Assembly: GCA_001603075.1 (NCBI GenBank)
Contig: LVBB01000041.1
Coordinates: forward strand, 124,001-188,000
Direction of reading: 5' to 3'
DNA length: 64,000 nucleotides
DNA from: Phycisphaerales bacterium Planc_01
Lineage (GTDB): Bacteria; Planctomycetota; Phycisphaerae; Sedimentisphaerales; Anaerobacaceae
Below the pieces are notes generated by a model. The model ran no database searches and had not been told where the DNA came from. It saw only the letters and a program-made list of their open reading frames with translations. Positions within the stretch are counted from its first letter, which is position 1; each line of letters opens with the position of its first letter. Below are positions 3,395 to 47,770 of the stretch, piece by piece. The translations under genes and the position numbers were made by a program.

Positions 3395-3444
3395 CAGCAC
3401 GTTCACGTCAGAGAATGTTCGTACGCACAGCAAGGACGCATAAG

Positions 3445-16423: not shown

Positions 16424-18448
16424 CTATCCCATGTTCAGAGCAGCCATCTGGTTCTGTAGCAGCGTCAGAGCCTTCTCCAGTCGCGCGTATTTGGTGATCA
16501 GGCGCGTTTCCACGCTCGACAGGCGCGTCTCCTCCTGGGCGATGCGGTTTTCGAGATTCCGAATCTGCGCATCAACCGAATTCTGATCCAGCGTCAGCCA
16601 GCCGCTCGTGGATTTCACGAAGCGCTCGATCACGTCCTCCATGGCGCCGGTGAAGCCCTGTCGGACGCGGACGGTGGCATTGAACGTGCCGTCCTGACTG
16701 AGATCGACGCTCAGGAACATCCCGTTTTCAGCGTACATCGGGGTCCCGTTGTCGGTGAACGTACTGTTGCCTGAGATCATATTCCCGCTGATGGTGGCGT
16801 CGCGATAGGCGGATTCGCCCTTGAGTTTGATCTGCGCGCTGGTGATGGCCCCTCCGGAAACGGTGACCTGCACGTTGTATGTTCCGCCCTGGGTGTACTT
16901 GCTCGATGCGCTGTAGAACTGGATCATATTGCTGTCGGAAGTGCCGGTCTTGTCGGCTCCGATAAGGGCCAGCACGCCCATGTAGTCCTTCGCGATGGCC
17001 TCGTTGAACACCGTGGTATCGAGAGAGAGCGTCCCATCCCGTTCGAGTTCGAGACCGATGTGTCCGGGCATGAGGAAGGAGTCGATGTCGATGACGAAGC
17101 CGTCGGTCTGTCGCAGCAGCGGCATACGAAGGCTGTTGAGGATGCTCGACACGGTGGAGTCGCCCATCAGGACACCGGCTGTCTTGAGGGTGCTGTTGTA
17201 GCCGGTCTTCTCGGCGAGAAACGTCACGACCGAATTGTACGCGTCGACCAAAGTCGTGAGCTTCTGCTTGACCGACTCGATATCACGCGTCAGATTGACC
17301 TGGACCGTTCCCGTGTCGTGCAGGTGCAGTGTCACGCCCTGAAGAACGTCGTCGATGGTGTTGGAGCTGCGGCTGATCCATGCCTCCTCCCCCATCGGAA
17401 ACCCATCCACCTTGATCTGCGAATCCTGGGCCGATTGGGTCTCGGCAAAGTCCGATTCGGCAAATCCCGCCAGGCTCGCCGCCGTGCTGCCCCCCTGCGT
17501 GAACTGCGCAATTGGAGGAAAGGTCAGAGTCGTGGAGCCGGAACCCGCATCGTAGCTGAGGCTCAACTGCATCTGGCTGGCGCCGCTGGTGTGGTCGGTC
17601 AATCGAATCTGACCGTTCACCACCGTCGCGCTGGCCGTCCCTCCAAACGCCGTATTGATCTCCTCGACGAGATGGTCGAGCCGGGTGTTCTCATTGATCG
17701 CGAAGTTGTAGCTCACCTCCGTCCCATCGTTCTGCCGGCCGGTGATCGTAATGGATTCATCGCCGGCAAACGTTCCCGTGAACTGATCCAGATCTTTGAT
17801 CTTCGTGGTCAATGAGGCATTCTCCCCTCCGACCGTGACGGGCGATGTGGTCTGCCATACTTCCGTATTGCTGGGATTGATGAAGATCTCGTAGTCGGAG
17901 CCGGCCTCGTTGCCGTTGAGAACGAGATGATAGGCGCCGTTATGATGGAGCAGCGTGGCGGTCACGCCGGGGTTGTTGGCGTCATTGTTGATCAGCCCGG
18001 CGAACTCCTCCAGCGTGGTATCGGCCGTCGTCGTGATGGTCACCTCTTTACGGTTATACGAGTAGATGAACACCCCCTCACCGACGTAGTCCTCCTTGTA
18101 CTTCATTCCCGTCGCGTGCACCCACCGTTCGGCGTTGGCGAGTTGGTTGACCACCACCGAATGGTTGCCCTCGAACGCGTTATTGGACGATACAGCGGTC
18201 AGGACGTCCGTGTCGCTGGAGGCGGTGGCATAGGCCCGCAGCGTTCGCGCATCCGAAAGGGCCGTCGCCGCCGTCTTGAGGTCGTTGAGCTTGGTCTTCA
18301 GCGTGTTGAGCGCCTCTTTGCGCTGGTCCCACGTATCCTTGGTCGCGACGTATTTGTTGAGTCTGCGCTGCTCGATCTGCATCAACTGCGTGATCAGAGC
18401 GCTCGTGTCGATTCCGGTGGACAAGCCTGACAGACGCAATTCACCCAT
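16424..18448 (-). CDS. fliD: Flagellar filament cap protein FliD
   Basis: A 674-residue filament cap that folds flagellin at the tip. The N-terminal FliD domain begins LRLSGLSTGIDTSALITQLM, and the C-terminal domain ends with a long coiled-coil helix (LENRIAQEETRLSSVETRL). The middle holds flagellin-hook-like IN motifs. ATG 18448 was chosen for its fit to the family N-terminus and GAAGGGG upstream; the frame is open to 18478. It is the last gene of the minus-strand run, behind the giant glycosylation gene, which ties that island to filament assembly. Confidence 0.95.
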   Translation of the reverse strand: MGELRLSGLSTGIDTSALITQLMQIEQRRLNKYVATKDTWDQRKEALNTLKTKLNDLKTAATALSDARTLRAYATASSDTDVLTAVSSNNAFEGNHSVVVNQLANAERWVHATGMKYKEDYVGEGVFIYSYNRKEVTITTTADTTLEEFAGLINNDANNPGVTATLLHHNGAYHLVLNGNEAGSDYEIFINPSNTEVWQTTSPVTVGGENASLTTKIKDLDQFTGTFAGDESITITGRQNDGTEVSYNFAINENTRLDHLVEEINTAFGGTASATVVNGQIRLTDHTSGASQMQLSLSYDAGSGSTTLTFPPIAQFTQGGSTAASLAGFAESDFAETQSAQDSQIKVDGFPMGEEAWISRSSNTIDDVLQGVTLHLHDTGTVQVNLTRDIESVKQKLTTLVDAYNSVVTFLAEKTGYNSTLKTAGVLMGDSTVSSILNSLRMPLLRQTDGFVIDIDSFLMPGHIGLELERDGTLSLDTTVFNEAIAKDYMGVLALIGADKTGTSDSNMIQFYSASSKYTQGGTYNVQVTVSGGAITSAQIKLKGESAYRDATISGNMISGNSTFTDNGTPMYAENGMFLSVDLSQDGTFNATVRVRQGFTGAMEDVIERFVKSTSGWLTLDQNSVDAQIRNLENRIAQEETRLSSVETRLITKYARLEKALTLLQNQMAALNMG

Positions 18449-18529
18449 GTTTATCGCCCCTTCATCTTCCGCCGGCATCCCGACGGACGGGTATCCGGGG
18501 CCGTTCCAGCAAACGACCCTGGTCTTGTT

Positions 18530-18549: not shown

Positions 18550-18574
18550 CCTGAACCTCATGCCACGGCTTTTT

Positions 18575-21500
18575 CTATGCCGCACCGACAGAATGTGCCT
18601 TCGTCGGTGAGGCCTTCGGGCGGGCCTCCGCCAGACCGATGGGCAATCGCCCGTCGTGTTCCCGGCACCACGCCACGACATCGACGGGTCGCGCCGATTC
18701 AAAGGCATCCCTGACGAATTGGCGGGCCGCCGGGTGGTCATGACGGTCGATCTCGCGCTCCAGATACAATCGAGCCTCCGGTTCCATCCGCAGGGCAAAG
18801 AGTGCCAGACCTCGAAGCAGGTCGAAGCCCTCCACGCGGTCCATGACCGTCGGCGCCAGGGCCTCCACGTCGTTGAGCATGCCTGCGCAACTGACGTAAC
18901 AGCCCCCATTGAACAGATCCACGGCCAGGCGCAGATACTCCGGAACAACGTGTTCGTCCAACGGCTCGTTCTCCCACGCAATGATCTGGGCCTTGAAACG
19001 CGTCAGGAAATCGCCGCAGGTGCATTGGCGCAATTCACGTCCGATATCCGCGCCGGGATGCAACCTCAGACGATCGCGGACGCCCTGGAGCTTGACCATG
19101 CAGTATTGTCGGTATCGCATCCTGCGATTGCGCGGGTCCAGAGTGGATACGAGCCGTGTGGAGTTGCTCCCGTGCATCCGGATCAGGGTCAGACACTCCG
19201 GCACGCTCTTTGCGCAAACCGGCTTGCCCGCTTCGGCATAAAGGGCCAGCTTCGCCGACCAGAAAGAGTCGGCGGCGAAAGGATTTTCATCGTAAAGACC
19301 GATCTCGGCGAAAAGCGATTTGCGGATGATGGCCGATCCATGGCTCATCCCGTGCTGCCAGGAACGGAACCGGGCCAGAATCTCCTCGTTCGTCCGCGGC
19401 AATCGGTTGTGCTCGCTGCACTGGGGGCCACGATACCGATCCAGGAAGGTGCGATAGTCCGATCCGACCATGGCCATCCGATCATCCATCCGGATCTCAT
19501 GATAGAGGGTCTCCAGCTTCGTCGGACACATGATGTCGTCGGCATCGTGCACGACGATAAAATCGGCGGCGGCCCGCTCGATGGCGAAGTTGCGCCGGAC
19601 GTAAGGGCCCCGACTGTCGTCGAAGCGGTGCACCTGAATGCGACCGTCGTGTCGGGCATACTCCGCCATGATTTGCCGTGAATCGTCCGTGCTGCCGTCA
19701 TCGAGCAGGAACAACTCCCACTCGCCCAGCGTCTGGGCCAGGATGCTGTCCACACACTCGGCCAGGAAACGTTCGGCGTTTCGGCACGCCGTGACTACCG
19801 TGACCTTGGGCGAACCTGCCGGCGTCGTCGCGGCCGCAAGGTGCGCTTTCGGAGACGCCTTCGGCCACAGGACCCTGTCGATCCGAGGTGTGATGACGTC
19901 GGCGCGTTCGGCGTACCACTGAGCCACATCGACCGCAACGCCTCGTTCGAAGATCTCCTGGTGCAACTGTCGAGCCATCGAGTTGTCGTGGTTGACCATC
20001 TCGCGATGCAGACAGTCCCGACCGCAATTGGTATGTCCCAGCCCATAAAGCGCCATCGCGTGGATCAGATCGAAGTTGGCCGCGCGAACCGCCACGGCGG
20101 GGTCCATGATTTCCAGCCAGCGCAGCGTCCGCACACAACTGACATACCGCCGTTCTCGCAAGTGCTCCAAGGCACGCCGGAGCAGGTCGTCCATGGCCCG
20201 GTCATCCGCAGGCTGCTTCTCCCCTTCGATCGCCTGATCGCCCCGTCGCTCCAGAAAATCGCTGCATGTGCATTCGCGCAGTTCATGGGCCATGTCGACA
20301 CCCGAGTCGCACTCAGCCCGCCCGACCGCCCCTTCGAGCGTCTCCAGGCAATACTGAGCATAGGCAACCCTTCGGCTGCGCGGGTCCATCGTCGGCAGCA
20401 ATCCGGTTTGCGAATCGGCATGGACCCGACGCAGGGTGAGGAACTCCGGGATCGTGCCGAGACGCACCCGACCGGTATGGTGGGCATATTCGATTGCCTT
20501 GGCCAGCCAGAACGAATCGGCGCCGAAGGGATTCTCGTCATAGAGACCGATCGTATCGAACAGATCGCGTCGCACGATGGCCGAGCCGTGCCACAGATAG
20601 TCCCAGATGCGTTGCGTCCGGTAGACTTCCAGCATCTGTTCCTGCGTCGTGGGCAGGATCGCCGCCTCCGTGTGCTCGATGCCGGTGAACTCATCGAGGA
20701 AACTGCGATAGAACGACCCGACGACTCCCAGACGCTGGTCCTCGGCGATTGCCTCAACCAGACGCTCGAGCTTCTGTGGAACCATGATGTCGTCGGCGTC
20801 CTGGATCGAGATGAACGGCGCGCGGGCTTGTCGGATGGCGAAGTTGCGGCGAACGTAGGGTCCGGCGCTGTCGTCGAAGTAGAGAGGCCGGATGCGCGCG
20901 TCCCGGGCAGCGTATGTCTCGATGATCCGCCGGGTGTCGTCCGTGCTGCCGTCGTCGATCAGGAATAGTTCCCATTCGGTCAGCGTTTGGCTCAGGATGC
21001 CGTCCAGGCACTCGGCAAGGTGCGTCTGCGCGTTGCGGCATGTCGTCACTACCGTGACCCTGGGACCCGAGGGGCGTGACGCAGGAGTGGACGCCGACGA
21101 TGCGGGGCGGGACGGTGTCCCCAGACGCTCTCTCATCTCCGGCACGAGAGCCGGACCGACGTGCACCATCACATCGTTGGAATCGGTCCCTCCCATGAGG
21201 ATCTGGCAGTGCTTGCACCGATGGGGCATATCGTCCCGGCTGTCCTTGATGGCCTGCCGCAAATCCTGGAGCTTCCTGCCGTTCCACACGCCTTCGAGGG
21301 GCTCCGTCAGCGCATTGCCCATCGGAAGGTCCAGCAGATGACAGCAGGGCACGACGTCGCCGTTGAGAAGGATGCGAACCCGCTGCCAAGGTCGAACACA
21401 CCGTCTGTGGCCTTCCGTCAGTTGCTGCGAGGCCACGTAGGGAGGGCGGCTCACATCGAAGTTGTTGGGGATGTCCAGGACCAATCCGAGTCGAGCGGCC

Positions 21501-24500
21501 TTGGCCCTGGCCAGATCGAAGCTTTCGTTCGCCTGTTCCCGATGGAAGAGCAACGAGTCGTCCAGCGCCGAGGCACTGTAGATGTGGACGAAGTTCACCG
21601 CCACGCTGTCGAAGGCATATCGGCCGGCCATCTCGATCACGTCGGGCAGTTCGGCGATGTTCTGGCGCATCGCAACGAAGGCCAGTTCGCAACCGAGGTC
21701 GGGCTTGTCCCGCCGGATGTCGGCCAGAATCTCCAGGTTACGGCAGAGGCGATCGAAACGCAGACGTGTACGGATGGATTCGTAGGTCTGTCGGGTGGAT
21801 CCGTCCACCGAAACACGAACGGTGTTGAAGAACTTCCGAATCGTCTCCGCCCGTCGCCCGGCCAGCGTGGACAGATTCGTCGTCATTCCAAGAGACACAC
21901 CGAAGCGATTGGCGTACTCGCAGAGATCGTAGAACTGCGGATGCAGCAGGACCTCGCCGCCGATCAGGTGAACATCCATGGCGGTCGGCAACCACTCGTC
22001 GGCCAGCCGTCTGAACTGCTCCAAATCCACGATCTCGCCGTCCATCCCGTAGCCGCACATGACACACCCCCCGTTGCACCGTGTGATCACGTTGAACTCC
22101 ACGATCGTGGGGCGGTGGGAACAGACAGCGGGTTTGTCGCGCCTGGCCTGGGCGAAGGCAAGCGCGTTGCTGAGGGTCCTCGCCTCGAAATCGAGCGCTC
22201 GGGCCTTGCTCTTCCTTCCGGCCTTGCGAAACAGCTCGGCGAGCTTCACCGCAACGGCATGCTTTCCCGAGGCCCCTCGAGGCATGGACCGATACTTGCG
22301 CTCCAGTTCGACAAGAACCTGCGCCGTTCGCTCGTCCAACGCCTCGTCCTCATCCGTCGCACGATCCGCAGGCATCTCAATTGCCGTCGGCGGGCTCGTT
22401 CGGTCTGTGTCGTGATCGCTGTCCGTCCCCTCCGGCGCAAGTCGGCCGCCGGGCGAGGGATCGCCTTCTGTCGATTGGGTCTCTGAAGGCGGCAATCGAT
22501 CCCGCATCTGTTCCATCCTCTGTCGTTGGGCCGGTTCCAGGCGGATATGACGATTCGCCAGAAGCCTCGCATACGTCTCGGCCACACCGTCATACCGGCC
22601 GATTTGCATGTAACACTCCGCCAGACGCGTGCAGGCGGCGATGTAACACTCCGTGATGTCTCGATAGTCGTGAAATTCCTTCTGTACGCGATCCAGACGC
22701 TCCCGGCCGAGCAGTTCCTCCAGAGGGGCGAGGATACCCTCAAGATAGGTACATGCCTCGGCGGGCCGACCCAGAAGCGTCCAGGAGGACCCCAGAACAC
22801 ATTTCGCCTTGATGGAATCGGGGCGGCCCTGGAGAGCCTTCTGCGCCCACTCAATCGCCACACGCGGATTGCGTTTTCGGAAGAACAGGCTGTTCTGCAG
22901 ACATTGCTCGTGCCGTTCGTCGTCCGTCCAGGTTCCGCTCGGACACAGGCCAGTGACAAACACCAGAAAACTCCATGCGTCGGATTCCTGCTCCTTCGCC
23001 AGGCAGTTCGATTGCATCAATTGCCCGATGGCAAACCGATGCTCCACAATCAGAGAATCCACATACTCGGCATGCGGCTCTACCGGACCACTGTAATGGA
23101 CAAGAACATCAGGGCAGTAGAGGATCGGTCGCCGACTCGCATCGGGATCCGCATAGATGCGGCACGACAGTTGAATCGCCCCGTGGTCGAACGGCATGCC
23201 GCCGAACCCGCCGAAACGGAGGAAGGTCGCCCTCTCGAAGACACACATTTCGTCGATGTCACATGCCGCATCAAGGACAGCGGGGCCCAAATCGAATCGA
23301 ACAGGACACACGGCATCTGCTGTGCACGCGATCCGGCCTCGCAGGCCGCTGAGATCCTGCCGCCGAACATGTTGCAGGATGCATCTGACGAAATCGCCGT
23401 CCGGCAGCACGTGCGGGCCCAGGAAGGCCACGTATCGGCCTTCCGCCTGCTTCGCGGCGGCATTGCGGTGCCGGCCCCAGCCGGCGCCCTGCCCGACCCC
23501 GAGAACCACAAGGCGAAAACCGACCGAATCGGCCACTGACGCCAAATCGCCGGGGACAGGCCCTCGCGTCAGTGCGATCACCTCGAAGTCCTTCTCGGTC
23601 TGCGCGTTGAACGAAGCGATCATCTCCGTCCAGGGCATCCCACCATCCGCCACAGACACGACCACGGACAGGCCCTTCGGGCCTTTGACGCCGCGCTCCA
23701 ACAGACATCGCGCCGGCTCACTCGGCTCATCGGAATCGCCGAGGAAGATGGCTTGCTCGATGAACCTCATACGCTCCGCCCGTGTCCACCAGCCGTCATA
23801 CCGGTCTACATACTTCGCCCGAAAGAACGCCGCCAGGGGCGTCCCATGCGTGCGCCATTCCCGGTCGAGACACTCCTCGGCCTGCTGTGGATATCCAAGG
23901 GCGAAGTACGCCAGCGCCTTGACCAGATCATAGCTCCGCACGTTCTGCGCGATACCCTCCACGAGTTGCTCGACGATCTGGCTTGTCACGATACACCGAA
24001 CGAACTGGCTGTTTGTCAGATGGGAACAAATCCTTCCGATGAACTCCCGAACCATCCGAGGCGTCAGAGGAGCGCTTTCCCATTCGGCGAATCGGTGGCC
24101 GTTCTCGCGGGCGAAATCACTGCACACGGTCTGCCGCAGCAGTCTCCGGACATCCGCCTGAGGATCGAAGTCGAGCTGCCGGATCACCTCGGACAACCTC
24201 CGGGCACGGAACTCCTTGAATCGCGCCCGACGACTGCGCGGATCGAACGCCGGCAGGCTGCCCGTCTGAGAGCCGACGTGCATCCGCCGCAACGTCAGCA
24301 CCTCAGGGATGTTCATCAGGCGAATCTTGTCGTTTCGGCACGCATACTCGGCAACCTTCGCCAGCCAGAAGGAATCGGAGGCAAACGGGTTTTCATCATA
24401 GGGGCCGATCTCGTCGAAGACCCGTTTCCGGATGATGGCGGAGCCATGCCAGCAGAAATCGCACGTCGCAGAGCTTCGGTATTCGGCCAGGATCTGTTCG

Positions 24501-27500
24501 TGCGTTGTCTCCAGGGCAACCGCCTCGCAGTGCTCGGCCCCCTCGTATTCGTTCAGGAACATATGATAGAACGAGCCCACGACAGCAAGGCGTTCGTCCT
24601 GCGTGATGGCGAGGTGCAGTCGTTCGAGCTTCTGTGGAACCATGATGTCATCGGCATCCTGGATCACGATCAACGGAGCGCCTGCTTTCTCGATGGCGAA
24701 GTTCCGTCGCACATACGGTCCGGCGTTGTCATCGAAGTAGAAGGCCCGGATGCGCGCGTCACGAGCGGCGTAGTCCGCCATGATCCGCCGCGTGCCATCC
24801 GTGCTGCCGTCGTCGAGCAGAAACAGTTCCCACTCCGCCAGCGTCTGACACAGAATGCTGTCGAGACACTCGGCCAAGTGCCGTTCCGCATCGTGACAGG
24901 CCGCAATCACCGTCACCTTTGGACGAGATCCGGCCGGTCGCCCCGCTGCAACATCGACAGAGCGGTTTCCGTCGGGCCGCGTCTCGACGCAAGCGGCCGC
25001 ATCCCGACATAGCAGGGACGCCGACGAAGTCGCAGATGCACGGTCCGGGCGGATGCGACGCGCACACGCATCGCGCTGCTGCACGAGCTTCTCTCGCAGG
25101 GTCTCGGGAATAGATAACCTGCGATTTTCGAGCAGTCGTGAGTAGCTTGCCACGGCTCGTTCATATTGTCCCATCTGCGCCTGGCATTGGGCCAGACAGA
25201 CGCAGGTCGTCGCATACCGCTCGATAAGGCGGGTGCTCCCGACGGAATCCGACGACGCACGGCTCGACTGCTTCGCGGCGATCAGAACCTCCTGATGGCC
25301 CAGCGATTCCTCCTGTTTGCAGGCGGCCAGGTCGCGTCTTCCGGCGGCCATCAACCGATCGGCCTGCCGCAGCAGCCAATCCACGCGCGCGGCTCTATAC
25401 GCCGCCGTCAGGTGGTTGGGCTGCCGGGGCGGCGTTTCGACGAGCACGCCTTGTCGGTTCAGTATCCATGTGGCCCCCGAGGTTCGTCCCGTGTTGTCGG
25501 AAGCCCCGGCCAGTTCGCGGTTGCGGGCCGCCTCCACCCCCTTCCAGGCCTCCTCTCGTCCACCGGCTACGTGTCCGTAGTCATGGTCTTGATGGACGGC
25601 AGTGATGAACTCGGTGCCGTCGACCACCACCGCCCCGTACGTATGCGGCGCCATGACCAGCCAATTGTCCCAGGCCGTCCGTCCGATCGCAAAAGGAGGA
25701 ATCTCGCGATACAGTCCCTTGGGAAAAACGAAGTAGTCGAGGCCGCACTCCGCGTGAAGCATGGCGTTCTCGGCCATCTGCTCCTGGAGCGAGCGCTGCC
25801 AGCACGGCTGACGGAAGTCAATCTCCTCCAGAACGGGGATGTCCCATCGCTGGCCGATGAGCAGGAATTGCGACTGTTGCGTCCGCACCCTCTGCACGCC
25901 GTCGGCGAAATCCTGAAAGAGGATCATATCCGCATTGACGTAGGCCAGCACCGCGTGCGAGGCGTGCAGCTGGGCGGCCTCAAACAGCTTGTTGACCAGA
26001 GGCGTGCCAAACTCATTGCGCTCGATATGAGGAACGTGACAGGCGCCGACCTCTTCAGCCATCTCGCGAATCCCTTGCTCATCGCCGAACAGGATGATCT
26101 CCGGCGCCGGGTCGAGCCGGGCCCAGCTTCGGATCGCGTTCTTCTGAATGACGGCCACGTGACCGACAAAGGCCTTCGGCATCGCGAAGATCGTCAGTCC
26201 CCGCTCATTCTGCGGCTGAGGTCTCGGCGTCTGTGCCTCGCCGCCGGGTCCAACGCGTGCGACAAGGTCCTCAAACAACCGCCGGCAGCTTGGATTGTCG
26301 GAATTCGGTACGACACGACCGAGGATGTCTCTGGCCTGTCTGAGCTGGCCGCACCGAGCAAAGCACACCGCCAGGCCGTAGGCGAAACCCCAGTCGCCCG
26401 GATGCTTGTCCATCAGATCGACCAGAGCCTGTGCCGCCTCGGCGATTCGATTCTGCTTGTAGTACCGCAAGATACGCTGCATGGCATCGCCCAGGGACGC
26501 AGAGGCGGGAATGCAGGCCAGGGGATGGTACAGGACAGTGCCCCATTCATCGGGCCGCTCGGCCGGCTGACAACAGCGTGACAGGCACCCCTTCCGCCAG
26601 ATGAGATGGACGTGCTTGGCATCCTCATCGTAATGCAGCTCGATACCATGACGGTTTACAAAATCGAGCAACGGGATCACTTCCGCAAAGCCCATGAACG
26701 AACCGCCTTTGTGGTAGGGAGCATAGTGTCCCTCGAAGCACTGCAGTTCATCGATCTCACCAACCACGCGACTGTTCAGAAACGTCTGAGCATTGTCGCG
26801 CGTCAGTCGCTCTTCGCTGAACCAGACATCGTCCACAATCACCAGGCTGCCGTCGGGTAAGACAGGCAGCGCCTTGGTGAGCACATGCTCCATAATCGGA
26901 ACACCAGGCAGATCGTGGGCATCCACGAAGAAGATCACTTTGTCCTGCGGCGTCCACAGCGTGGTGAAGTCGGTATCGAGGATGTCCTGCTCCAGAAGGG
27001 TCACTCGCGAGAGATCGACGGGAAGCAGACGCATCGTCTCATGCAATTCGGCGAAACTGCGGTCCACGGCGTAGATCTTCGCCCGAGGAGCGGACGTGAT
27101 CCACGTTCGCAACGACAGCCCGGCCAGCGTTCCCAGCTCGACAATGACCGTGGGATCGAAGGCCCGAGCCTGGGACGCCAGAGCGGCCAGGGTCTCGCTG
27201 GACTGATCGCGATGATACAGGCGGTTCTGCCTGGAGGTCAGGGTCTCGATCCAGCGGCTGAAGTGGGCCATATCCTGCACAGATCCCGGCAACGGAGCAT
27301 TGGCACATGAATCCAGTTGCTCCGTCAGGGCGCGCGTAAGCTCCTTCTGGACGAACGGGCCGAATCGATGGTTGCGCCGCATGAGTTGGAAGACAAACTC
27401 GTCCGGCTGCAGATGGCCTCGCCGCTCTTCGATCTGGCGCTGCCATGTGGGTTCGCCGTGGACGAGCGACGCGAGCGTCAAACGGGCATCCGCATAGATC

Positions 27501-29056
27501 CAACGGTCGGGCTCGCGCTGTGGCGCCGCGGGCCTGCCGTCACGGTAGTACCAGTAGCCTGTCACGTCGACGCCGACGGCTACCACGCACGGTCGCACCG
27601 CCGGACGCTCTCGCATGCGAATGGAATCGTACTGATGATAACCGATTCGTCGGAGCAGTTCGGGCAAGTCCAAGGGACGATTGGACACGGCATCGCGGTA
27701 GTCCAGGTTGAAATAGGCGTCCGATATGTAGAATCGCGGCGACTCAGATTTCACATCGGCAAAAAGCGTCACCGCATGAGATAGCACAGAGCCGGAAGAG
27801 TCCGCATAGCCGAAATGCGTCGCCGGTATGCCGAACAAGTTGAGAACCATCGCATGAAACACGGCCGTGCCGCCGCACCACACGCCTCCGTGTCGTCCCG
27901 AGAAGATTCGATACGCCGAGACCACATCCGTGGGGTGAATCTTCTTCGTCTCATCCGTCACCGCAACGGTCCGGGATGTCCAATCACGGAGAATATCGAC
28001 CGCCCTATGAACATCCGCACATCGAAGAGCCTCATCGAGCCCCGGACATTCCCGCCGTATGAGGTCCTTGAGTTCTTCCGGCGTAGACGGAGCCTCGCCG
28101 GCACATCGGGACCAGGGCGAGGGCGCGACACCCTGTCCGACGGACGAGACGGCCTTACGCGCCTTGCTCCGGAGCTTCGGCAATCGCGCAGCGTTCGGAT
28201 CGTATCGCTCCGCCTGCCGCACGAAGTACTCCCACCTCTCGGACGGCCCCTCGAACTTGAACACGCTGTCGGCCGCCCAGGCATAGTTGCCGGCGATGGC
28301 CTGCTCGACAGTGACCTTGCAGTCTCGCAGGATCTCGTTCTCACGAAACAGGGCGGGCATGACCCGCTCCCGTGCCGCCAGCAAGGCATCGTAGATCTCG
28401 CCACAGCGCGTGTGGGACTGCGAATGTCGGCCGAAGTGGCTGATGCTCACAGGCTGATAGAGGATCGTACCCACATTGGCCAGACGAATCCAGAATTCGA
28501 ACTCCCCGATCTCGTATCGCCAGGGGTGTTCGTGTAGGCCGGCCCGTTCGAGGGATTCGCGGTGAAAGAACGAGGAACAGAAGGGAGGCACCAGCGTTTG
28601 ACACACGTACGCCTCGATCGAGAACGGATGCGGCGGTACTCGTGGCCCCGACTTGTTCGCGTTCTCATCGACGTAGGAGACATTTCCGTAGAACGCCGCG
28701 ATGTGCGGATGGGCGACAAAGACTCGCGAGGCCTGCTCCAGCGCATCCGGAAACAACTCCTCATCGGACAGGCACGAGCCGATGTACCTTCCACGACAGC
28801 GTTTCAGCACCCGGAAGAATCCCTCTTCACCGCACGAATCCTCTTCCGACAGGAACCGAATGCGCGGGTCGGCGTACTGCGCCACGATATCGGCCGTTCC
28901 ATCGATCGATCCACCATCCTGGATCACGTATTCGAAATCCGTGAACGTCTGATGAAGAACGCTCTCGATGGATCGGCGAAACATGGCCTCCCGACCGACC
29001 ACGTTCTTGATGACCGAGTAGATGGAAAACTGTGGCGTTCTCTGATCGATGGACAT
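18575..29056 (-). CDS. Giant modular glycosyltransferase/radical SAM protein (3,493 aa)
   Basis: One uninterrupted frame encodes a cytoplasmic protein of about 390 kDa. In order, with rough residues: GT2 domain A (9-225, DGGS at 47-50); transglutaminase-like domain (350-455) with Cys394, His427 and Asp446; Rossmann methyltransferase-like domain (630-760); TPR-like helices (855-920); GT-A-like domain (950-1165, VNADMILF near 1040); TPR; GT2 domain B (1378-1600, DDGST 1415, DADD 1467). Then a degenerate GT2 (1793-1990); TPR; radical SAM with Cys2327, Cys2331 and Cys2334 and SPASM-like cysteines 2553-2617; GT2 domain C (2664-2890, DDGST 2701); GT2 domain D (3082-3300, DDGST 3119). B, C and D are clear duplications. 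ATG 29056 gives the GT2 start; the frame is open to 29254. It lies last in the glycan island, before fliD. I infer an assembly-line-like glycan builder; the acceptor is unknown. Confidence 0.85.
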   Translation of the reverse strand: MSIDQRTPQFSIYSVIKNVVGREAMFRRSIESVLHQTFTDFEYVIQDGGSIDGTADIVAQYADPRIRFLSEEDSCGEEGFFRVLKRCRGRYIGSCLSDEELFPDALEQASRVFVAHPHIAAFYGNVSYVDENANKSGPRVPPHPFSIEAYVCQTLVPPFCSSFFHRESLERAGLHEHPWRYEIGEFEFWIRLANVGTILYQPVSISHFGRHSQSHTRCGEIYDALLAARERVMPALFRENEILRDCKVTVEQAIAGNYAWAADSVFKFEGPSERWEYFVRQAERYDPNAARLPKLRSKARKAVSSVGQGVAPSPWSRCAGEAPSTPEELKDLIRRECPGLDEALRCADVHRAVDILRDWTSRTVAVTDETKKIHPTDVVSAYRIFSGRHGGVWCGGTAVFHAMVLNLFGIPATHFGYADSSGSVLSHAVTLFADVKSESPRFYISDAYFNLDYRDAVSNRPLDLPELLRRIGYHQYDSIRMRERPAVRPCVVAVGVDVTGYWYYRDGRPAAPQREPDRWIYADARLTLASLVHGEPTWQRQIEERRGHLQPDEFVFQLMRRNHRFGPFVQKELTRALTEQLDSCANAPLPGSVQDMAHFSRWIETLTSRQNRLYHRDQSSETLAALASQARAFDPTVIVELGTLAGLSLRTWITSAPRAKIYAVDRSFAELHETMRLLPVDLSRVTLLEQDILDTDFTTLWTPQDKVIFFVDAHDLPGVPIMEHVLTKALPVLPDGSLVIVDDVWFSEERLTRDNAQTFLNSRVVGEIDELQCFEGHYAPYHKGGSFMGFAEVIPLLDFVNRHGIELHYDEDAKHVHLIWRKGCLSRCCQPAERPDEWGTVLYHPLACIPASASLGDAMQRILRYYKQNRIAEAAQALVDLMDKHPGDWGFAYGLAVCFARCGQLRQARDILGRVVPNSDNPSCRRLFEDLVARVGPGGEAQTPRPQPQNERGLTIFAMPKAFVGHVAVIQKNAIRSWARLDPAPEIILFGDEQGIREMAEEVGACHVPHIERNEFGTPLVNKLFEAAQLHASHAVLAYVNADMILFQDFADGVQRVRTQQSQFLLIGQRWDIPVLEEIDFRQPCWQRSLQEQMAENAMLHAECGLDYFVFPKGLYREIPPFAIGRTAWDNWLVMAPHTYGAVVVDGTEFITAVHQDHDYGHVAGGREEAWKGVEAARNRELAGASDNTGRTSGATWILNRQGVLVETPPRQPNHLTAAYRAARVDWLLRQADRLMAAGRRDLAACKQEESLGHQEVLIAAKQSSRASSDSVGSTRLIERYATTCVCLAQCQAQMGQYERAVASYSRLLENRRLSIPETLREKLVQQRDACARRIRPDRASATSSASLLCRDAAACVETRPDGNRSVDVAAGRPAGSRPKVTVIAACHDAERHLAECLDSILCQTLAEWELFLLDDGSTDGTRRIMADYAARDARIRAFYFDDNAGPYVRRNFAIEKAGAPLIVIQDADDIMVPQKLERLHLAITQDERLAVVGSFYHMFLNEYEGAEHCEAVALETTHEQILAEYRSSATCDFCWHGSAIIRKRVFDEIGPYDENPFASDSFWLAKVAEYACRNDKIRLMNIPEVLTLRRMHVGSQTGSLPAFDPRSRRARFKEFRARRLSEVIRQLDFDPQADVRRLLRQTVCSDFARENGHRFAEWESAPLTPRMVREFIGRICSHLTNSQFVRCIVTSQIVEQLVEGIAQNVRSYDLVKALAYFALGYPQQAEECLDREWRTHGTPLAAFFRAKYVDRYDGWWTRAERMRFIEQAIFLGDSDEPSEPARCLLERGVKGPKGLSVVVSVADGGMPWTEMIASFNAQTEKDFEVIALTRGPVPGDLASVADSVGFRLVVLGVGQGAGWGRHRNAAAKQAEGRYVAFLGPHVLPDGDFVRCILQHVRRQDLSGLRGRIACTADAVCPVRFDLGPAVLDAACDIDEMCVFERATFLRFGGFGGMPFDHGAIQLSCRIYADPDASRRPILYCPDVLVHYSGPVEPHAEYVDSLIVEHRFAIGQLMQSNCLAKEQESDAWSFLVFVTGLCPSGTWTDDERHEQCLQNSLFFRKRNPRVAIEWAQKALQGRPDSIKAKCVLGSSWTLLGRPAEACTYLEGILAPLEELLGRERLDRVQKEFHDYRDITECYIAACTRLAECYMQIGRYDGVAETYARLLANRHIRLEPAQRQRMEQMRDRLPPSETQSTEGDPSPGGRLAPEGTDSDHDTDRTSPPTAIEMPADRATDEDEALDERTAQVLVELERKYRSMPRGASGKHAVAVKLAELFRKAGRKSKARALDFEARTLSNALAFAQARRDKPAVCSHRPTIVEFNVITRCNGGCVMCGYGMDGEIVDLEQFRRLADEWLPTAMDVHLIGGEVLLHPQFYDLCEYANRFGVSLGMTTNLSTLAGRRAETIRKFFNTVRVSVDGSTRQTYESIRTRLRFDRLCRNLEILADIRRDKPDLGCELAFVAMRQNIAELPDVIEMAGRYAFDSVAVNFVHIYSASALDDSLLFHREQANESFDLARAKAARLGLVLDIPNNFDVSRPPYVASQQLTEGHRRCVRPWQRVRILLNGDVVPCCHLLDLPMGNALTEPLEGVWNGRKLQDLRQAIKDSRDDMPHRCKHCQILMGGTDSNDVMVHVGPALVPEMRERLGTPSRPASSASTPASRPSGPRVTVVTTCRNAQTHLAECLDGILSQTLTEWELFLIDDGSTDDTRRIIETYAARDARIRPLYFDDSAGPYVRRNFAIRQARAPFISIQDADDIMVPQKLERLVEAIAEDQRLGVVGSFYRSFLDEFTGIEHTEAAILPTTQEQMLEVYRTQRIWDYLWHGSAIVRRDLFDTIGLYDENPFGADSFWLAKAIEYAHHTGRVRLGTIPEFLTLRRVHADSQTGLLPTMDPRSRRVAYAQYCLETLEGAVGRAECDSGVDMAHELRECTCSDFLERRGDQAIEGEKQPADDRAMDDLLRRALEHLRERRYVSCVRTLRWLEIMDPAVAVRAANFDLIHAMALYGLGHTNCGRDCLHREMVNHDNSMARQLHQEIFERGVAVDVAQWYAERADVITPRIDRVLWPKASPKAHLAAATTPAGSPKVTVVTACRNAERFLAECVDSILAQTLGEWELFLLDDGSTDDSRQIMAEYARHDGRIQVHRFDDSRGPYVRRNFAIERAAADFIVVHDADDIMCPTKLETLYHEIRMDDRMAMVGSDYRTFLDRYRGPQCSEHNRLPRTNEEILARFRSWQHGMSHGSAIIRKSLFAEIGLYDENPFAADSFWSAKLALYAEAGKPVCAKSVPECLTLIRMHGSNSTRLVSTLDPRNRRMRYRQYCMVKLQGVRDRLRLHPGADIGRELRQCTCGDFLTRFKAQIIAWENEPLDEHVVPEYLRLAVDLFNGGCYVSCAGMLNDVEALAPTVMDRVEGFDLLRGLALFALRMEPEARLYLEREIDRHDHPAARQFVRDAFESARPVDVVAWCREHDGRLPIGLAEARPKASPTKAHSVGAA

Positions 29057-29109: not shown

Positions 29110-30099
29110 TCAATGCGCATAGAAGACAATGTGCGAAGCCAGGGTCTCGAATCGAAACGGCACCACGAGGAACTGCTGGAGCGCTCGCCTGACCTGCGCC
29201 TGCCGTTCGGGCGGAACGAAGAAGAGGAAGAACCCGCCGCCGCCGGCACCGCACAGTTTGCCCCCCAGGGCTCCGGCGTCGATCGCCGTCTCATAAATCT
29301 CGTCGATCTCGCTGCTCGATACGAGCTCCGTCAACTCTCTCTTGAGCATCCAGGACTCGTGCAGGAGCCTGCCGAACGCGTCGTACCCGTATGCCGGTCC
29401 TCGAAGAATGTCCAATGCCTCGCCCACCATCTCGCGAATTCGTCTCAGTTCGCGGAGCTTTTGCGGCGTGCTTCGCACCTGTTCTCCGGCGATCTCCGAT
29501 GCATACCGGGAGAACCCTGTGAAACAAAGCAGCATGTGTTCCTGGAAGTACTGGAGCTTCTCCGGCGGCAGAACCACCGGCTGGACGAAGATGCCGTCGT
29601 CCCGTCCGCCGAACTCGATGCGATTGAAGCCCCCGAACGCCGCTGCCGTCTGATCCTGCGAGCCGACGCTTTCGCCGATGATGTTCTGCTCGATGTGGAT
29701 GGCGTCGAGCGCCAGCCGCCGCTTCGTGACCATCTCGCCTTTCAATGCGTACAATGCCTGCAGCAGCCCCACCGTGAAGGACGAACTCGATCCGATTCCG
29801 GACATGGCCGGGATGTCGCTGGTGTGTACGATCTCGACCCCGTGCTCGATGCCGCAGAAGCGCAGGCATTCGCGGACGGAGGGATGCTCGATTTCGTCGA
29901 TGGTGTTCGTCATCTCGCTCCTGGAATAGCGAATCCGATACTTGTAGTCGAAGAACGGCGGCAGGTATCGACAGGTGATGTAGCAGTAGTGGTTGATGGT
30001 CGTGTTCAGGACCTCGCCCCCGTGCTCGCGGTAATAGACGGGATAGTCCGAACCTCCTCCGAAGAAAGAAATCCGGAAGGGGGTCCGGGTGATGATCAT
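29110..30099 (-). CDS. hddA: GHMP sugar kinase, HddA-like
   Basis: A 329-residue kinase of the galactokinase/mevalonate-kinase family. It begins MIITRTPFRISFFGGGSDYP, typical of D-glycero-D-manno-heptose 7-phosphate kinase HddA and related enzymes. The ATP loop PAMSGIGSSSSF is near residue 100 and the C-terminal GGKLCGAGGGGF motif is intact. ATG 30099 with AGGGG upstream fits the family. An in-frame ATG at 30240 overlaps the previous stop as ATGA and has AGGAG, so a 47-residue extension is possible. With the HddC-like gene at 40528 it suggests GDP- or NDP-heptose formation, but GmhA and GmhB partners are not seen. Confidence 0.75.
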   Translation of the reverse strand: MIITRTPFRISFFGGGSDYPVYYREHGGEVLNTTINHYCYITCRYLPPFFDYKYRIRYSRSEMTNTIDEIEHPSVRECLRFCGIEHGVEIVHTSDIPAMSGIGSSSSFTVGLLQALYALKGEMVTKRRLALDAIHIEQNIIGESVGSQDQTAAAFGGFNRIEFGGRDDGIFVQPVVLPPEKLQYFQEHMLLCFTGFSRYASEIAGEQVRSTPQKLRELRRIREMVGEALDILRGPAYGYDAFGRLLHESWMLKRELTELVSSSEIDEIYETAIDAGALGGKLCGAGGGGFFLFFVPPERQAQVRRALQQFLVVPFRFETLASHIVFYAH

Positions 30100-30236
30100 C
30101 GGGTGCCCCTGCACGAGGCCGGGGCACTCGGCCCAGGCGGTATGGTCCGGGCGAAGCGTGGCAAGGGCGGCGCCGGCCGACGGACCGTATCCTGCATAGG
30201 GACGAGAGGAAGCCTTTGAGGAAGTATGGGTGACAA

Positions 30237-31187
30237 TCATAGCGTGCTCCTGTACCAGTCGATCGTCCTGCGCAGACCCGTCTCAAAGGGCGTGGTCGCC
30301 TCGAAGCCCAACAGGTGTTTCGCCCGGGAGGGATCGATCAGACGCTTCGGGATCATCGTCGGCTTGGTAAGATCGTATTCGATGCGGGCCTCCGTATAGC
30401 CATCCAGCTTGAGAATCAGATCGAGCGCATCGCGAAGACAGTGCTCCCGGCCCGTGGCCAGATTGATCGGCTCGAAGCGGTCGATCTTCTCCATCGCCAG
30501 CAACAGCCCCCCCACGAAATCCTCGACATAGATCAGATCTTTGATGTCTCGTCCGTCTCCCCAGACCTGGATGGGATCGTGCCGCTCGACCACACGACGA
30601 ATCAAAGCGGGCAGAACATGACTGGTCTCCCACTCGAAATCATCGTACGGACCGTAGATATTGGCCGGTCGGACCACCACGGTCGTCATGGGACGCTTGA
30701 TCTTGGTGGCATACATCTCGCATGCGGCCTCGCAGAAGCGTTTCAGCCAGCCGGCCACGAAGTACTTCTCGTAGAACTGGCCGGTCACGTCGGTCTCCTT
30801 GACCGGATAGTCCGTAACTGGATAGACGGTGCTGCTGCTGATGAAGAGCACCTTCTTCACACCAGCCGCATAGGCCGCCTCCAGCATCAGCACACTCATC
30901 GTAACGTTGGGCGTCAACAGGAACAGCGGCTTGGTCTCCATCATGTGCGCCCCGGCGGTGACGGCCGCACAGAGGAAGACATAGTCGACATCGGCGCAGA
31001 CGCCGGCGCAGTCCTCGGCCTTCGTCAGGTCGCATCGGACGTATTCGATCCGGTCGTCTGCGATCACCGGGTCCTTCGCGTGCACCGTCGCCCGTACCCG
31101 GGCCCCGAGGTCCACGAGACGGCGAACGAGGTTCGCCCCGACGAAACCGGCCCCGCCGGTCACAAGCACGCTCTTTCCTTCAAACAT
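30237..31187 (-). CDS. NAD-dependent sugar epimerase/dehydratase (SDR)
   Basis: A 316-residue extended SDR. The NAD loop is VLVTGGAGFVGANL at residues 7-20, the Ser-rich strand is ISSSTVYPV, and VVRPANIYGPYDDF follows. Where the catalytic YxxxK is expected the sequence reads AGWLK, so Ala replaces Tyr; the SDR at 33247 shows the same feature. Function is probably epimerisation or reduction of a nucleotide-linked sugar. It follows the RmlC-like gene by 17 bases, and its stop overlaps an ATG of the kinase frame as ATGA. Confidence 0.8.
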   Translation of the reverse strand: MFEGKSVLVTGGAGFVGANLVRRLVDLGARVRATVHAKDPVIADDRIEYVRCDLTKAEDCAGVCADVDYVFLCAAVTAGAHMMETKPLFLLTPNVTMSVLMLEAAYAAGVKKVLFISSSTVYPVTDYPVKETDVTGQFYEKYFVAGWLKRFCEAACEMYATKIKRPMTTVVVRPANIYGPYDDFEWETSHVLPALIRRVVERHDPIQVWGDGRDIKDLIYVEDFVGGLLLAMEKIDRFEPINLATGREHCLRDALDLILKLDGYTEARIEYDLTKPTMIPKRLIDPSRAKHLLGFEATTPFETGLRRTIDWYRSTL

Positions 31188-31204: not shown

Positions 31205-31723
31205 CTATTCGACAAAATGCCCCGCCTCGTCTCTTCGCGACAGCACCGGCTGGCCCGTCGGCCACCAGATGCCCAACTGCGGGTCGTCCCACTTCAACGT
31301 GAACTGACCGGCGGGATGGTAGTAGGTGCTTTGCTTGTAGTGGAAGATCGCCTGCTCGCTGAGCACCAGATGGCCGTTCCCGAATCGCGGCGGAACCAGC
31401 ACCTGATGGCAGTTGCGATCGGACAGGACAAAGGACTGCCAGTGTCCGAACTGGTCCGACCCCTTGTCCCAATTGACGACCACAAGATAGAATTTGCCCG
31501 AGAGGCAACTGATCAGCTTCCAGGTTTCCGCATCTCCGTGGATGCCGCGCAGGACGCCCCGGTCCGAGACGGAAATGTCGTCCTGCACGAACGCCGCCTC
31601 GATCCCGCGGTCGCGGTACATCTGCTCGTTGTACGTTTCCACATACACGCCCCGGTGGTCCTCGAAGACCTCCGGGCGGATCCGTTTGACGCCTGCGAGT
31701 TTGGTTTCTTCGACGACGATCAT
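31205..31723 (-). CDS. dTDP-4-dehydrorhamnose 3,5-epimerase-like protein
   Basis: A 172-residue cupin of the RmlC/RfbC family. The conserved RGVLRGIHGDAETWK stretch (near residue 60) holds the catalytic His, and VPPRFGNGHLVLSE matches the second half of the active site. It should epimerise C3 and/or C5 of a 4-keto-6-deoxy sugar nucleotide. RmlA, RmlB and RmlD are not together with it, so the substrate may be GDP- rather than dTDP-linked. Its start overlaps the stop of the radical SAM gene as ATGA. Confidence 0.85.
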   Translation of the reverse strand: MIVVEETKLAGVKRIRPEVFEDHRGVYVETYNEQMYRDRGIEAAFVQDDISVSDRGVLRGIHGDAETWKLISCLSGKFYLVVVNWDKGSDQFGHWQSFVLSDRNCHQVLVPPRFGNGHLVLSEQAIFHYKQSTYYHPAGQFTLKWDDPQLGIWWPTGQPVLSRRDEAGHFVE

Positions 31724-33198
31724 GCATCACCTGAGACAGTCACGTTGTTTCTGGAGGTCCAGAGCTTCCGCCACAGCAACTTCAGGGCGCCGCCCGAGGA
31801 GGAATGCATCGGGGCCTTTCGCCTGCGCCAGTGGAGATTGAAGATCTTGTTCTCGATCGCGTAGCGATAGTAGCCCTGACGTATCCTCGCGAACAGCCGG
31901 TTCGGCGGCACGTATTTGATCGCCTGCAAGACCAGCCAGTGCAGCGGAAATGGAAGCCTGGCGGCCACGGCCCCCAGAAGGAAGATGTTGTACCGAATTC
32001 GCTTTTCTCGGTCGGTGAAACACGCCAGCGTGGAGACGCCGCAGCACCCGCTCAGGTCCCCTACGTGCGTTTGCGGATCGATCAGGCCGCGAGCAACACT
32101 GTAGTCATAAAGGGCGGTGCCTTCCACGGGCACCGTGGTCGAATAGGCAGCATACGTGACCTTGCTTCTTCGGTTCAGAGCGATGGAATCCAAATCGTCC
32201 TGGAGCGTGGAATCCGGGGCCGCCAGCATGTAATTGACCCAGGTATGAATGCCGTAGCTTTCGATCAGCCGGAGCTGCCGGGCAATATCGACCTTCTTCA
32301 TCCTCCGGCCAAGCACCGTCTCGCGTACGAATTCCGAGGTGCTGTCCACCGAGAGATGCACGGAATAGCAGCCGGCCTGCTTGAGCAATCCCAACAAATC
32401 CGAGTCGACGTGGTCGAAGCGGAGGTAGCAGTTGAACGGCAGACCAATCCGCCTGGCGTACTGATTCGTAAACTCCTCCAGCCAGTCATCCGCCTTCATG
32501 GCAAAGAGATCGTCGCCGAACTTGACGAAGTCCATGCGGTAGTGCCTCTGAACGGACTCGATCTCCCCAATGACTCTTTCCACCGAGAACCGCCGAACGA
32601 TGCGCCCTTTGCCCCGATACAGCTTCTTGTAGTAGTTGTTGCAGCAGTAGCTGCAACTGAACGGACAACCCCGCGTTGCATAGAACGTCTTCTTGGGCGT
32701 GTCCTTCAAGAACGTGTGGGCCAACGTGATGTCGCGATCCGGAACGGGCAGATCGTCGAGAGGATCGACCAGACGGCGGACGTCGTTGCGTCCCCTGCCG
32801 GTGATCAGATTGGGCACATCATCGAACGATCGCCCCGTCTCCACCCTCTTCAGGAAGTCCTCGAACGCCCGTTCGCCCTCGCCCATACAGTAGGCGTCCA
32901 CTCCGGCCTGCGCAAATGTCTCCGGGCTGAACGTGGGATGCGGCCCCCCCATGATCGATGTGAACTCGAATCGCCGGCGCGCCTTCCTGTGCGCGGCGGA
33001 CAGAGCGGCGAAGCTCACCACATTGGCCGAATAGGCCACGACGTCCGGGCGACAGCGATGGATCGTCTCCGCCAGATCCGTCTGGTCCAGAACGCACAGA
33101 TCCGTGGCCCACCCCGCCCGTTTGGCGACGGCCGACAGATAAGGGACCGCGATGTGGTCGGCGAAATCGATCTTCTCAATGACGAACAGCGATCTCAT
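31720..33198 (-). CDS. B12-binding-type radical SAM protein
   Basis: A 492-residue radical SAM enzyme with an N-terminal cobalamin-binding-like Rossmann domain (about residues 1-130, with GGPHPTFSPE). The radical SAM core begins at ATRGCPFSCSYCCNNYY, a CX3CX2C cluster motif near residue 195. This domain order is that of class B radical SAM methylases and related enzymes. In a sugar cluster it could methylate or rearrange an unactivated carbon. The C-terminal tail is basic with a hydrophobic stretch. ATG 33198 has GGAGAG close upstream; the frame is open to 33225. Confidence 0.85.
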   Translation of the reverse strand: MRSLFVIEKIDFADHIAVPYLSAVAKRAGWATDLCVLDQTDLAETIHRCRPDVVAYSANVVSFAALSAAHRKARRRFEFTSIMGGPHPTFSPETFAQAGVDAYCMGEGERAFEDFLKRVETGRSFDDVPNLITGRGRNDVRRLVDPLDDLPVPDRDITLAHTFLKDTPKKTFYATRGCPFSCSYCCNNYYKKLYRGKGRIVRRFSVERVIGEIESVQRHYRMDFVKFGDDLFAMKADDWLEEFTNQYARRIGLPFNCYLRFDHVDSDLLGLLKQAGCYSVHLSVDSTSEFVRETVLGRRMKKVDIARQLRLIESYGIHTWVNYMLAAPDSTLQDDLDSIALNRRSKVTYAAYSTTVPVEGTALYDYSVARGLIDPQTHVGDLSGCCGVSTLACFTDREKRIRYNIFLLGAVAARLPFPLHWLVLQAIKYVPPNRLFARIRQGYYRYAIENKIFNLHWRRRKAPMHSSSGGALKLLWRKLWTSRNNVTVSGDA

Positions 33199-33246
33199 GG
33201 ATCTCTCCAGCGTCCCGGCGGCCATGGCGCGCCGGACGCTTCGGAC

Positions 33247-34224
33247 TCACGCCGTCTGCAGAAAGTAGTTCTTCTTGTTCTTGTACTCGTCCTCATGCTC
33301 GATGTACCAGGCCCACGTCTCCTGCAGACCGTCCAGCAGCGAGGTCGATGGATTGTAGCCGAGGCGCTCCCGGGCCAGAGAGATATCCATCACACGCTTG
33401 GGATACCCCGTGGGCTTGCTCGCGTCGAACTCGTAGCGGAAATCGAGGAACGCATTCAGCGCTTCGATCAACTGACGAATCGTGCATTCCCTCCCACTTC
33501 CGAGATTCACGAAGCCGCCCTTTGTGCCGTGACAGAGGGCCAGAACCACGCCTTCCGCCACGTCCCGGCTGTATACGAAATCGCGGACGGCCGAGCCGTC
33601 GCCCCAGACCACCAGCGGGTCCTCGCCCCGACGGATGCGACACATCAGCGAGGGAATGACCATGGCGTTGTCCGGATCGAAGTTGTCGCCCGGCCCGTAG
33701 ACGTTGCTGGGCCTTACGACGGCAAAACTCTCCAGCCCGTACTGCGTATGGTAGGCCTCGACCTGCAACTCGGCGACGCGTTTGGCCCAGCCGGCAAAGT
33801 CCATCGGCAGGCTGTCCAGCCGGTAATCGGATTCCCGGAAGACGTCTGTGCTGGCATAGGCGCCGATGGAACTGGTGTAGACCACCCTTTGCACCCCGTT
33901 GACCCGGCAGGCTTCGAGCACGTTCGTGTTCATCATCAGGGTCGGGACGAAATGCGTGGCGATCATGCCGGTCGAAACGGCGGCCGAACCCTTGATCCCC
34001 GCCAGATGGCAGACGCAATCCATCCGGCGCGTCACGTCCTTGCAGAACTCAAAGCGGGTCAGGTCGCCCAGGACATGCTCCGCCCGTTCGTCCACGGTGA
34101 CACGATCGAGCGACACGATCCTCACGTGCGCGCCGGCGTCGCACAGGAGCTTGACGACCTGACGCCCAATGAGTCCCGTGCCGCCGGTCACCAGAACACG
34201 GCGTCCTTCAAACTTCTCCAGCAT
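33247..34224 (-). CDS. NAD-dependent sugar epimerase/dehydratase (SDR)
   Basis: A 325-residue extended SDR. VLVTGGTGLIGRQVV (about residues 9-23) is the NAD loop, VVYTSSIGAYAS holds the catalytic Ser/Thr, and VVRPSNVYGPGDNF follows. The expected YxxxK reads AGWAK, with Ala for Tyr, as in the SDR at 30237. ATG 34224 has AGGAA five bases upstream and gives a family-like start; the open frame to 34368 overlaps the upstream gene and is unlikely. Substrate unknown, likely a nucleotide sugar. Confidence 0.8.
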   Translation of the reverse strand: MLEKFEGRRVLVTGGTGLIGRQVVKLLCDAGAHVRIVSLDRVTVDERAEHVLGDLTRFEFCKDVTRRMDCVCHLAGIKGSAAVSTGMIATHFVPTLMMNTNVLEACRVNGVQRVVYTSSIGAYASTDVFRESDYRLDSLPMDFAGWAKRVAELQVEAYHTQYGLESFAVVRPSNVYGPGDNFDPDNAMVIPSLMCRIRRGEDPLVVWGDGSAVRDFVYSRDVAEGVVLALCHGTKGGFVNLGSGRECTIRQLIEALNAFLDFRYEFDASKPTGYPKRVMDISLARERLGYNPSTSLLDGLQETWAWYIEHEDEYKNKKNYFLQTA

Positions 34225-34262
34225 GTATTCCTGTATCACGTTGCACGCTCCAGAACAGGGTA

Positions 34263-47703: not shown

Positions 47704-47753
47704 CTGCGTAACTCCATTCTGACCAACGAATAGATTGGGACTGTCTGAGTGAC

Positions 47754-47770
47754 TGCAAATCACATGCCGT
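47754..47770 (-). promoter_or_regulatory. Sigma-54 promoter of the glycan island
   Basis: The minus strand reads ACGGCATGTGATTTGCA. The GG at -24 and GC at -12 are correctly spaced, and GGCA and TTTGCA are kept; four other consensus positions differ. It ends about 50 bases before the start of the TPR-glycosyltransferase gene. It would put the island under flagellar control. Confidence 0.6.

Follow-up and report, generated by a model that had tools for sequence, protein, structure and literature searches.

A giant, module-swapping protein encoded beside fliD in Phycisphaerae and its probable role in flagellar glycosylation

Introduction

Protein glycans of bacteria are commonly attributed to groups of transferases that are separate proteins. 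In the 64,000-nucleotide stretch of a Phycisphaerales genome analyzed here (the window, to which all coordinates refer) one frame of 3,493 codons, lying among flagellar genes, joins several glycosyltransferase-type domains with domains of modifying type, and the question is whether this is a single real protein and what it does there. In the best-studied systems flagellin glycosylation is cytoplasmic and precedes export, and the TPR part of FlmG binds flagellin and can select it (PMC7591256). If one protein bundles transfer and modification and swaps its modules, it would be a natural system in which gene order could be used to read glycan structure.

Results

Open reading frame

The megaprotein gene (18575..29056, minus strand; 3,493 aa, about 390 kDa; delimited by reading of the frame, orthologues and dN/dS) runs from the ATG at 29056 to the stop at 18575 through 3,493 codons with no interruption. 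The same frame continues in the 5' direction to a GTG at 29254, overlapping the preceding kinase gene. Since this GTG lies inside the kinase gene and the orthologues in loci L002 and L003 begin with matching sequence, the ATG at 29056 is assigned as the start. Long frames are also present in relatives of the same genus or family, with 4,014 aa in G002, 2,914 in G029, 2,828 in G005, 3,202 in G378 and, up to a contig edge, at least 2,276 in G004, and the orthologues of 4,014 and 2,914 aa show the same domain order as the window protein. In comparison with G001 and G002, dN/dS was 0.06-0.51 in every computable domain (TPRb against G002 was saturated and not computable), and the domains of the megaprotein are thus under purifying selection. 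The single uninterrupted frame claimed in a preliminary description of the locus is in this way confirmed.

These genomes are draft assemblies of many contigs (162 in the window genome) and the gene has repeats, which could favor an assembly or frame artefact that fused separate genes. We give this explanation next to no credence. At the DNA level the internal GT2 repeats share only about 67-77% identity, so that a collapsed or expanded assembly is unlikely, the fused order is identical in independent genomes, and blocks of synonymous divergence cross the whole frame with no frameshift. Misassembly was rejected on the two orthologues of the same order and on the low dN/dS in all measurable domains. 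A homopolymer-type phase switch is also unsupported, there being no run of seven or more identical bases in the gene.

Domain composition

From the N to the C terminus the protein consists of the following modules (basis of assignment in brackets):

28157..29056, minus strand, GT2A, divergent N-terminal GT2, residues 1-300, motif SDEE; other relatives have one or two GT4N modules instead (Pfam, motif)
27257..28114, minus strand, TGL, transglutaminase-like domain, residues 315-600, motifs WCGG, SHAVT and SDAY; optional module (motifs, weak profile match)
26657..27256, minus strand, MT, class I SAM-methyltransferase-like domain, residues 601-800, conserved core (sub-threshold Pfam match, motif, weak CmcI/O-methyltransferase matches)
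26222..26569, minus strand, TPRa, residues 830-945 (TPR_19 at 866-922)
25412..26209, minus strand, GTX, orphan domain, residues 950-1215, invariant N-x-D and D-Y-F / W-D-N-W motifs; conserved core (motifs, profile comparison)
25022..25339, minus strand, TPRb, residues 1240-1345 (TPR_6, TPR_2)
24197..24928, minus strand, GT2B, canonical GT2, residues 1377-1620, DADD intact (Pfam, motif)
23687..24196, minus strand, helical tail of GT2B, TPR-like (predicted helices, pLDDT mostly 56-74 in part only)
22937..23674, minus strand, GT2C, GT2-like without DxD (sequence search, motif)
22457..22936, minus strand, TPRc, residues 2041-2200 (sequence search; predicted helical, pLDDT about 75)
22127..22369, minus strand, TPRd, residues 2230-2310, helical, preceding the radical SAM domain (domain mapping, predicted structure)
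21182..22123, minus strand, radical SAM and SPASM, residues 2312-2625, motif CNGGCVMC; block exchanged between species (Pfam, motif, synonymous divergence)
20387..21094, minus strand, GT2D, canonical GT2, residues 2655-2890, DADD intact (Pfam, motif)
19877..20386, minus strand, tail of GT2D (domain mapping)
19157..19849, minus strand, GT2E, canonical GT2, residues 3070-3300, DADD intact; final module in most close relatives (Pfam, motif)
18578..19156, minus strand, tail of GT2E, forming the C terminus (domain mapping)

The four GT2 domains named in the preliminary description were close to the mark, as PF00535 matched five times (370 bits summed): three canonical copies, GT2B, GT2D and GT2E, with intact DDGS and DADD motifs and each with its own helical tail, the divergent GT2A with SDEE, and GT2C, in which DxD is missing in all four homologues compared (the window protein and three others) and which, judged from its motifs, is probably non-catalytic. 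The TPR segments and the radical SAM/SPASM domain of the same description were borne out by Pfam, with TPR_19 at 55.9 bits (residues 866-922), further matches of TPR_6, TPR_2 and TPR_7, and Radical_SAM (45.8 bits) and SPASM (PF13186, 49.6 bits) both above cut-off; the motif CNGGCVMC is of the CxxxCxxC form. No carrier or tethering domain is among the Pfam matches of the megaprotein, and neither Pfam nor the 25 NCBIfam families listed gave a match to a Maf catalytic domain. Structure prediction with 3-4 sequences reached a mean pLDDT of 34 (residues 315-1215) and 41 (residues 1376-2310), too poor for interdomain geometry.

Of the transglutaminase-like and methyltransferase-like domains proposed earlier, the motifs proved conserved and profile matches were weak, with no Pfam match for the former and a sub-threshold one for the latter. 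In the TGL of the window protein Cys, His and Asp residues stand in transglutaminase order; a PDB profile search gave nothing usable, and comparison with a small transglutaminase profile from the same genome (hhalign) gave E 1.4e-4 and a probability of 53% over the Cys half only, so that motifs and a weak profile comparison suggest the transglutaminase-like assignment. G002 has lost the TGL cysteine, and from the G001 orthologue, which is otherwise roughly 90% identical, the entire module is missing, exactly and in-frame. The lost cysteine, together with a GT2C that lacks DxD in all four homologues, indicates that some modules are not catalytic. MT keeps the SAM-motif ELGTxxG, scored 17.3-21.6 bits against Methyltransf_24 (curated cut-off 26.3) and had weak PDB profile matches to CmcI/O-methyltransferases (E 0.002).

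For GTX no Pfam or PDB relative was found by sequence or profile search. Invariant N-x-D, DYF, R and WDNW-type motifs run through its 21 homologues, and alignment with a GT2 profile placed N-A-D on DADD and IPPF...WDNWL on IGxYDENPF...SFWL (probability 3%, E 0.013, one comparison). Motifs and weak profile comparisons point to GTX as probably a divergent GT-A glycosyltransferase. Standalone GTX proteins of 272-337 aa occur in other families of the class (loci L085-L091), several of them adjoining UDP-sugar dehydrogenase genes, and appear to be a glycosyltransferase-like family without a name.

Flagellar neighborhood

On one side the megaprotein gene is flanked by nucleotide-sugar genes followed by fliC and flgK, and on the other by fliD. 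The fliD gene is located 96 bp downstream and export genes are also near, in agreement with the flagellar setting described before. The genes of this region are:

16424..18478, minus strand, FliD, filament cap, next gene downstream (profile search)
29110..30240, minus strand, GHMP sugar kinase, HddA-like (profile search)
30237..31187, minus strand, SDR nucleotide-sugar epimerase/reductase, Fcl-like (profile search)
31720..33225, minus strand, B12-binding radical SAM enzyme (profile search)
33247..34368, minus strand, second SDR nucleotide-sugar epimerase/reductase, Fcl-like (profile search)
34263..34985, minus strand, TylF-type O-methyltransferase (profile search)
35802-36878, aldo-keto reductase
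36875..38736, minus strand, split transketolase pair, two genes
39509..40540, minus strand, GDP-mannose 4,6-dehydratase-like enzyme (GMD-like), start codon uncertain
40528..41334, minus strand, sugar-1-phosphate guanylyltransferase-like (ManC/HddC)
42058..43482, minus strand, UDP-sugar dehydrogenase
43892..44509, minus strand, TPR protein, conserved beside fliC
44523..46214, minus strand, GT2 glycosyltransferase, conserved in almost all homologous islands
46201..47763, minus strand, TPR and GT4 glycosyltransferase, conserved beside fliC
47890..49080, minus strand, flagellin FliC
49153..51123, minus strand, FlgK

Several methyltransferase genes lie in this sugar island, and no polymerase or flippase is among its annotated genes. 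The TPR-GT4, GT2 and TPR proteins nearest fliC recur in almost all homologous islands. The split transketolase pair, the aldo-keto reductase and the B12-radical SAM enzyme suggest a branched or otherwise unusually modified sugar.

FliD was found in 108 of the 161 genomes of the host's order. A large multi-GT gene (defined as at least 800 aa and within 9 kb of fliD) lies upstream of fliD in 26 of 57 sampled regions, often as the next gene and with 1,000-3,200 aa; 17 regions have fliC or flgK within 5 kb of fliD and no such gene, and 14 were not assignable because a contig ended or genes were called poorly in AT-rich genomes. The 57 regions include G018 and G364, both found earlier by protein search. 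In all informative multi-domain relatives the gene, or its split pieces, is situated just upstream of fliD among nucleotide-sugar genes. In other genera (L043, L080, L082 and L084) this slot is taken up by several large proteins, encoded separately, that carry GT9, GT4, GT2 and methyltransferase domains. A search with GT2D-GT2E in 392 genomes drawn phylum-wide (E 1e-25) found nothing outside the class; as the same draw missed most relatives, this says little beyond rarity.

Module exchange

Domain mapping showed a core, MT-TPRa-GTX-TPRb, that is constant across relatives. On its N-terminal side stands GT2A, which TGL may or may not accompany, or else one GT4N module or two of them; on its C-terminal side come subsets of INS1-INS2, GT2B-GT2C-TPRc-TPRd-radical SAM, GT2D, an additional GTX-TPRb and, for most close relatives, the final GT2E. 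Module content differs between close relatives while the order remains colinear. GT4N is a large family with no Pfam match and, judged from sequence, may be GT-B-like; islands of the GT4N type have a different gene set, rich in radical SAM and B12-radical SAM genes and including a SIS-domain protein. Module type tracks the sugar-gene set and not the flagellar-gene phylogeny: G005, closest to the window genome in FlhB and FliG (85-88% identity), is yet of the GT4N type, while G029 (67-75%) has the GT2A-to-radical SAM type and sugar genes like those of the window. The contrasting loci are few, and this link between modules and sugar genes could reflect ancestry as well as function. The final GT2 of the G036 homologue (L039; G036:C52 near 53500-54700, about 18500-19700 in the locus) has decayed: it has lost the N-terminal half, and what is left reads in a different frame.

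Synonymous divergence from G002 varies along the gene as a mosaic whose breakpoints lie near residues 80, 1014, 2250 and 2630. By block, pS is 0.51 at the N terminus, then 0.24 (80-1013), 0.62 (1014-2249), 0.17 (2250-2629) and 0.58 (2630-3482), and a mosaic as extreme arose in none of 5,000 permutations of codons or 25-codon blocks; flagellar genes of the same locus have a pS of about 0.4-0.6. The block of lowest pS (2250-2629) is essentially the TPRd-radical SAM module, which indicates that whole modules were exchanged recently. The genes of the GMD-like dehydratase and the guanylyltransferase (39509-41334) also lie below the flagellar genes, with pS of 0.27 and 0.20 against G002, and are another recently exchanged block.

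Discussion

A role of the megaprotein in making a flagellar glycan is well supported by its location. We consider it probable, with moderate confidence, that the protein is a cytoplasmic modular multi-enzyme which, ahead of export, extends and modifies a glycan carried by flagellin (or by some related late flagellar substrate). The TPR and helical tail segments would hold the substrate, GT2A, GTX and GT2B, GT2D and GT2E would each add one sugar provided by the island's nucleotide-sugar genes, and the MT, radical SAM/SPASM and, if present, TGL modules would alter sugars, all possibly on one shared glycan handed over between active sites. Whole-module swaps, together with the supplying sugar genes, would then lead to a changed glycan. 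Radical SAM/SPASM sugar epimerases of antibiotic pathways, such as AviX12 and NeoN, are a precedent for radical SAM modification of sugars. A more far-reaching form of this proposal, which we put forward only tentatively, is a glycan megasynthase found widely across one order of Phycisphaerae. In such a giant, recombining protein the ordered modules would work in sequence along a single flagellin-bound chain, module content would encode the glycan, and radical SAM and transglutaminase-like chemistry would take place on the growing chain. The preliminary description had suggested an assembly-line glycan builder; its flagellar glycan part agrees with the location, and the assembly line is a reasonable possibility that module exchange strengthens, while the missing carrier or tethering domain and a GT2 without catalytic motif speak against it.

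Instead, the megaprotein may join flagellin glycosyltransferases that work independently and owe their fusion to co-expression and a common binding of flagellin; its TPR-linked units would then act on different sites or in different rounds with no ordered hand-over. Each canonical GT2 and its own tail behaves as a unit, such units are freely gained and lost, and separate large proteins occupy the same slot in other genera, all of which would fit this explanation. We nevertheless find it rather unlikely, as methyltransferase, radical SAM and TGL modules sit between the GT units and the order is colinear in close relatives, for which joint action on one glycan is the better fit. A further alternative is synthesis of some other surface polysaccharide or protein glycan with the flagellar cluster as mere location. 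The standalone GTX proteins, found in polysaccharide-type loci beside UDP-sugar dehydrogenases in other families, are consistent with it, but these homologues far from flagellar genes comprise the isolated GTX domain and not the megaprotein. The multi-domain form lies directly upstream of fliD in many genera, and the TPR and GT genes next to fliC are kept in almost all, which makes this alternative improbable; an unrelated polysaccharide locus was rejected on the fliD adjacency and on the absence of a polymerase or flippase among the island's annotated genes. That the megaprotein serves chiefly as scaffold or regulator, having kept some GT domains, is suggested by GmaR, which joins GT2, TPR and an anti-repressor function (PMC9638930) and which GT2E matches weakly, and by the non-catalytic nature proposed for GT2C. 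However, three GT2 domains and the radical SAM domain retain full motifs and dN/dS is low, and we regard such a function as very improbable.

On the multi-enzyme reading, a module-swapping glycan protein might be of use as a chassis for engineering glycosylation. It further draws attention to how motility and surface vary in uncultured planctomycetes, a subject little studied so far; such variation may serve in evasion of phages or grazers.

Comparison with known systems

Nonribosomal peptide synthetases and polyketide synthases (NRPS/PKS) carry interchangeable catalytic modules within one giant protein. The megaprotein family resembles them in its exchangeable modules in colinear order and differs from them in having no carrier domains; any colinearity of order and product in it is hypothetical.

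Like the cytoplasmic flagellin O-glycosyltransferases FlmG of Caulobacter and Maf-1 (the latter reported in PMC13317340 to use a C-terminal TPR domain), the megaprotein brings together glycosyltransferase and TPR parts in a single polypeptide whose gene lies among flagellar genes. Catalytic motif, TPR in the same protein and flagellar gene context, as in TPR-linked flagellin glycosyltransferases, are found here, and binding and glycosylation of flagellin would be predicted. Unlike it, FlmG and Maf-1 have one GT domain and lack GT2, methyltransferase, radical SAM and transglutaminase-like domains. GmaR of Listeria and clostridial GT2-TPR proteins join GT2 with TPR or helical repeats and act, or are predicted to act, on flagellin (PMC9638930, PMC13317340); GmaR, in contrast to the megaprotein, is a single GT of 637 aa with no modifying domains. 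A GT-methyltransferase fusion, the type B flagellin GT2 of C. difficile (CDR20291_0242), is proposed to add and methylate rhamnose on flagellin (PMC5207246), and enterobacterial GT41-methyltransferase fusions occur in a flagellin glycosylation locus (PMC4875605); for these fusions no array of five or more GT-type domains, no radical SAM domain and no module swapping are described. In dGT1 of Streptococcus parasanguinis (Fap1 glycosylation) two GT domains attach sugars one after the other to a single protein-bound glycan (PMC5207161), but there the domains are two, the substrate is an adhesin, and TPR and modifying domains are absent.

In the flagellar glycosylation islands of Clostridium, Enterobacteriaceae and Geobacillus, the sugar and GT genes within the flagellar locus vary (PMC13317340, PMC4875605). 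Features of such an island, unoccupied sites (17 loci) and two contrasting sugar-gene sets, were found here as well, with the difference that the variable GT content is largely fused into one or few giant proteins. In the literature searched by domain combination no protein with this domain set is described, in agreement with the earlier claim that nothing comparable was known. Smaller GT-GT, GT-methyltransferase and GT-TPR fusions are already known (PMC5207161, PMC5207246, PMC4875605, PMC7591256, PMC9638930, PMC13317340), and what is new here is that the megaprotein gene constitutes a syntenic, module-swapping family.
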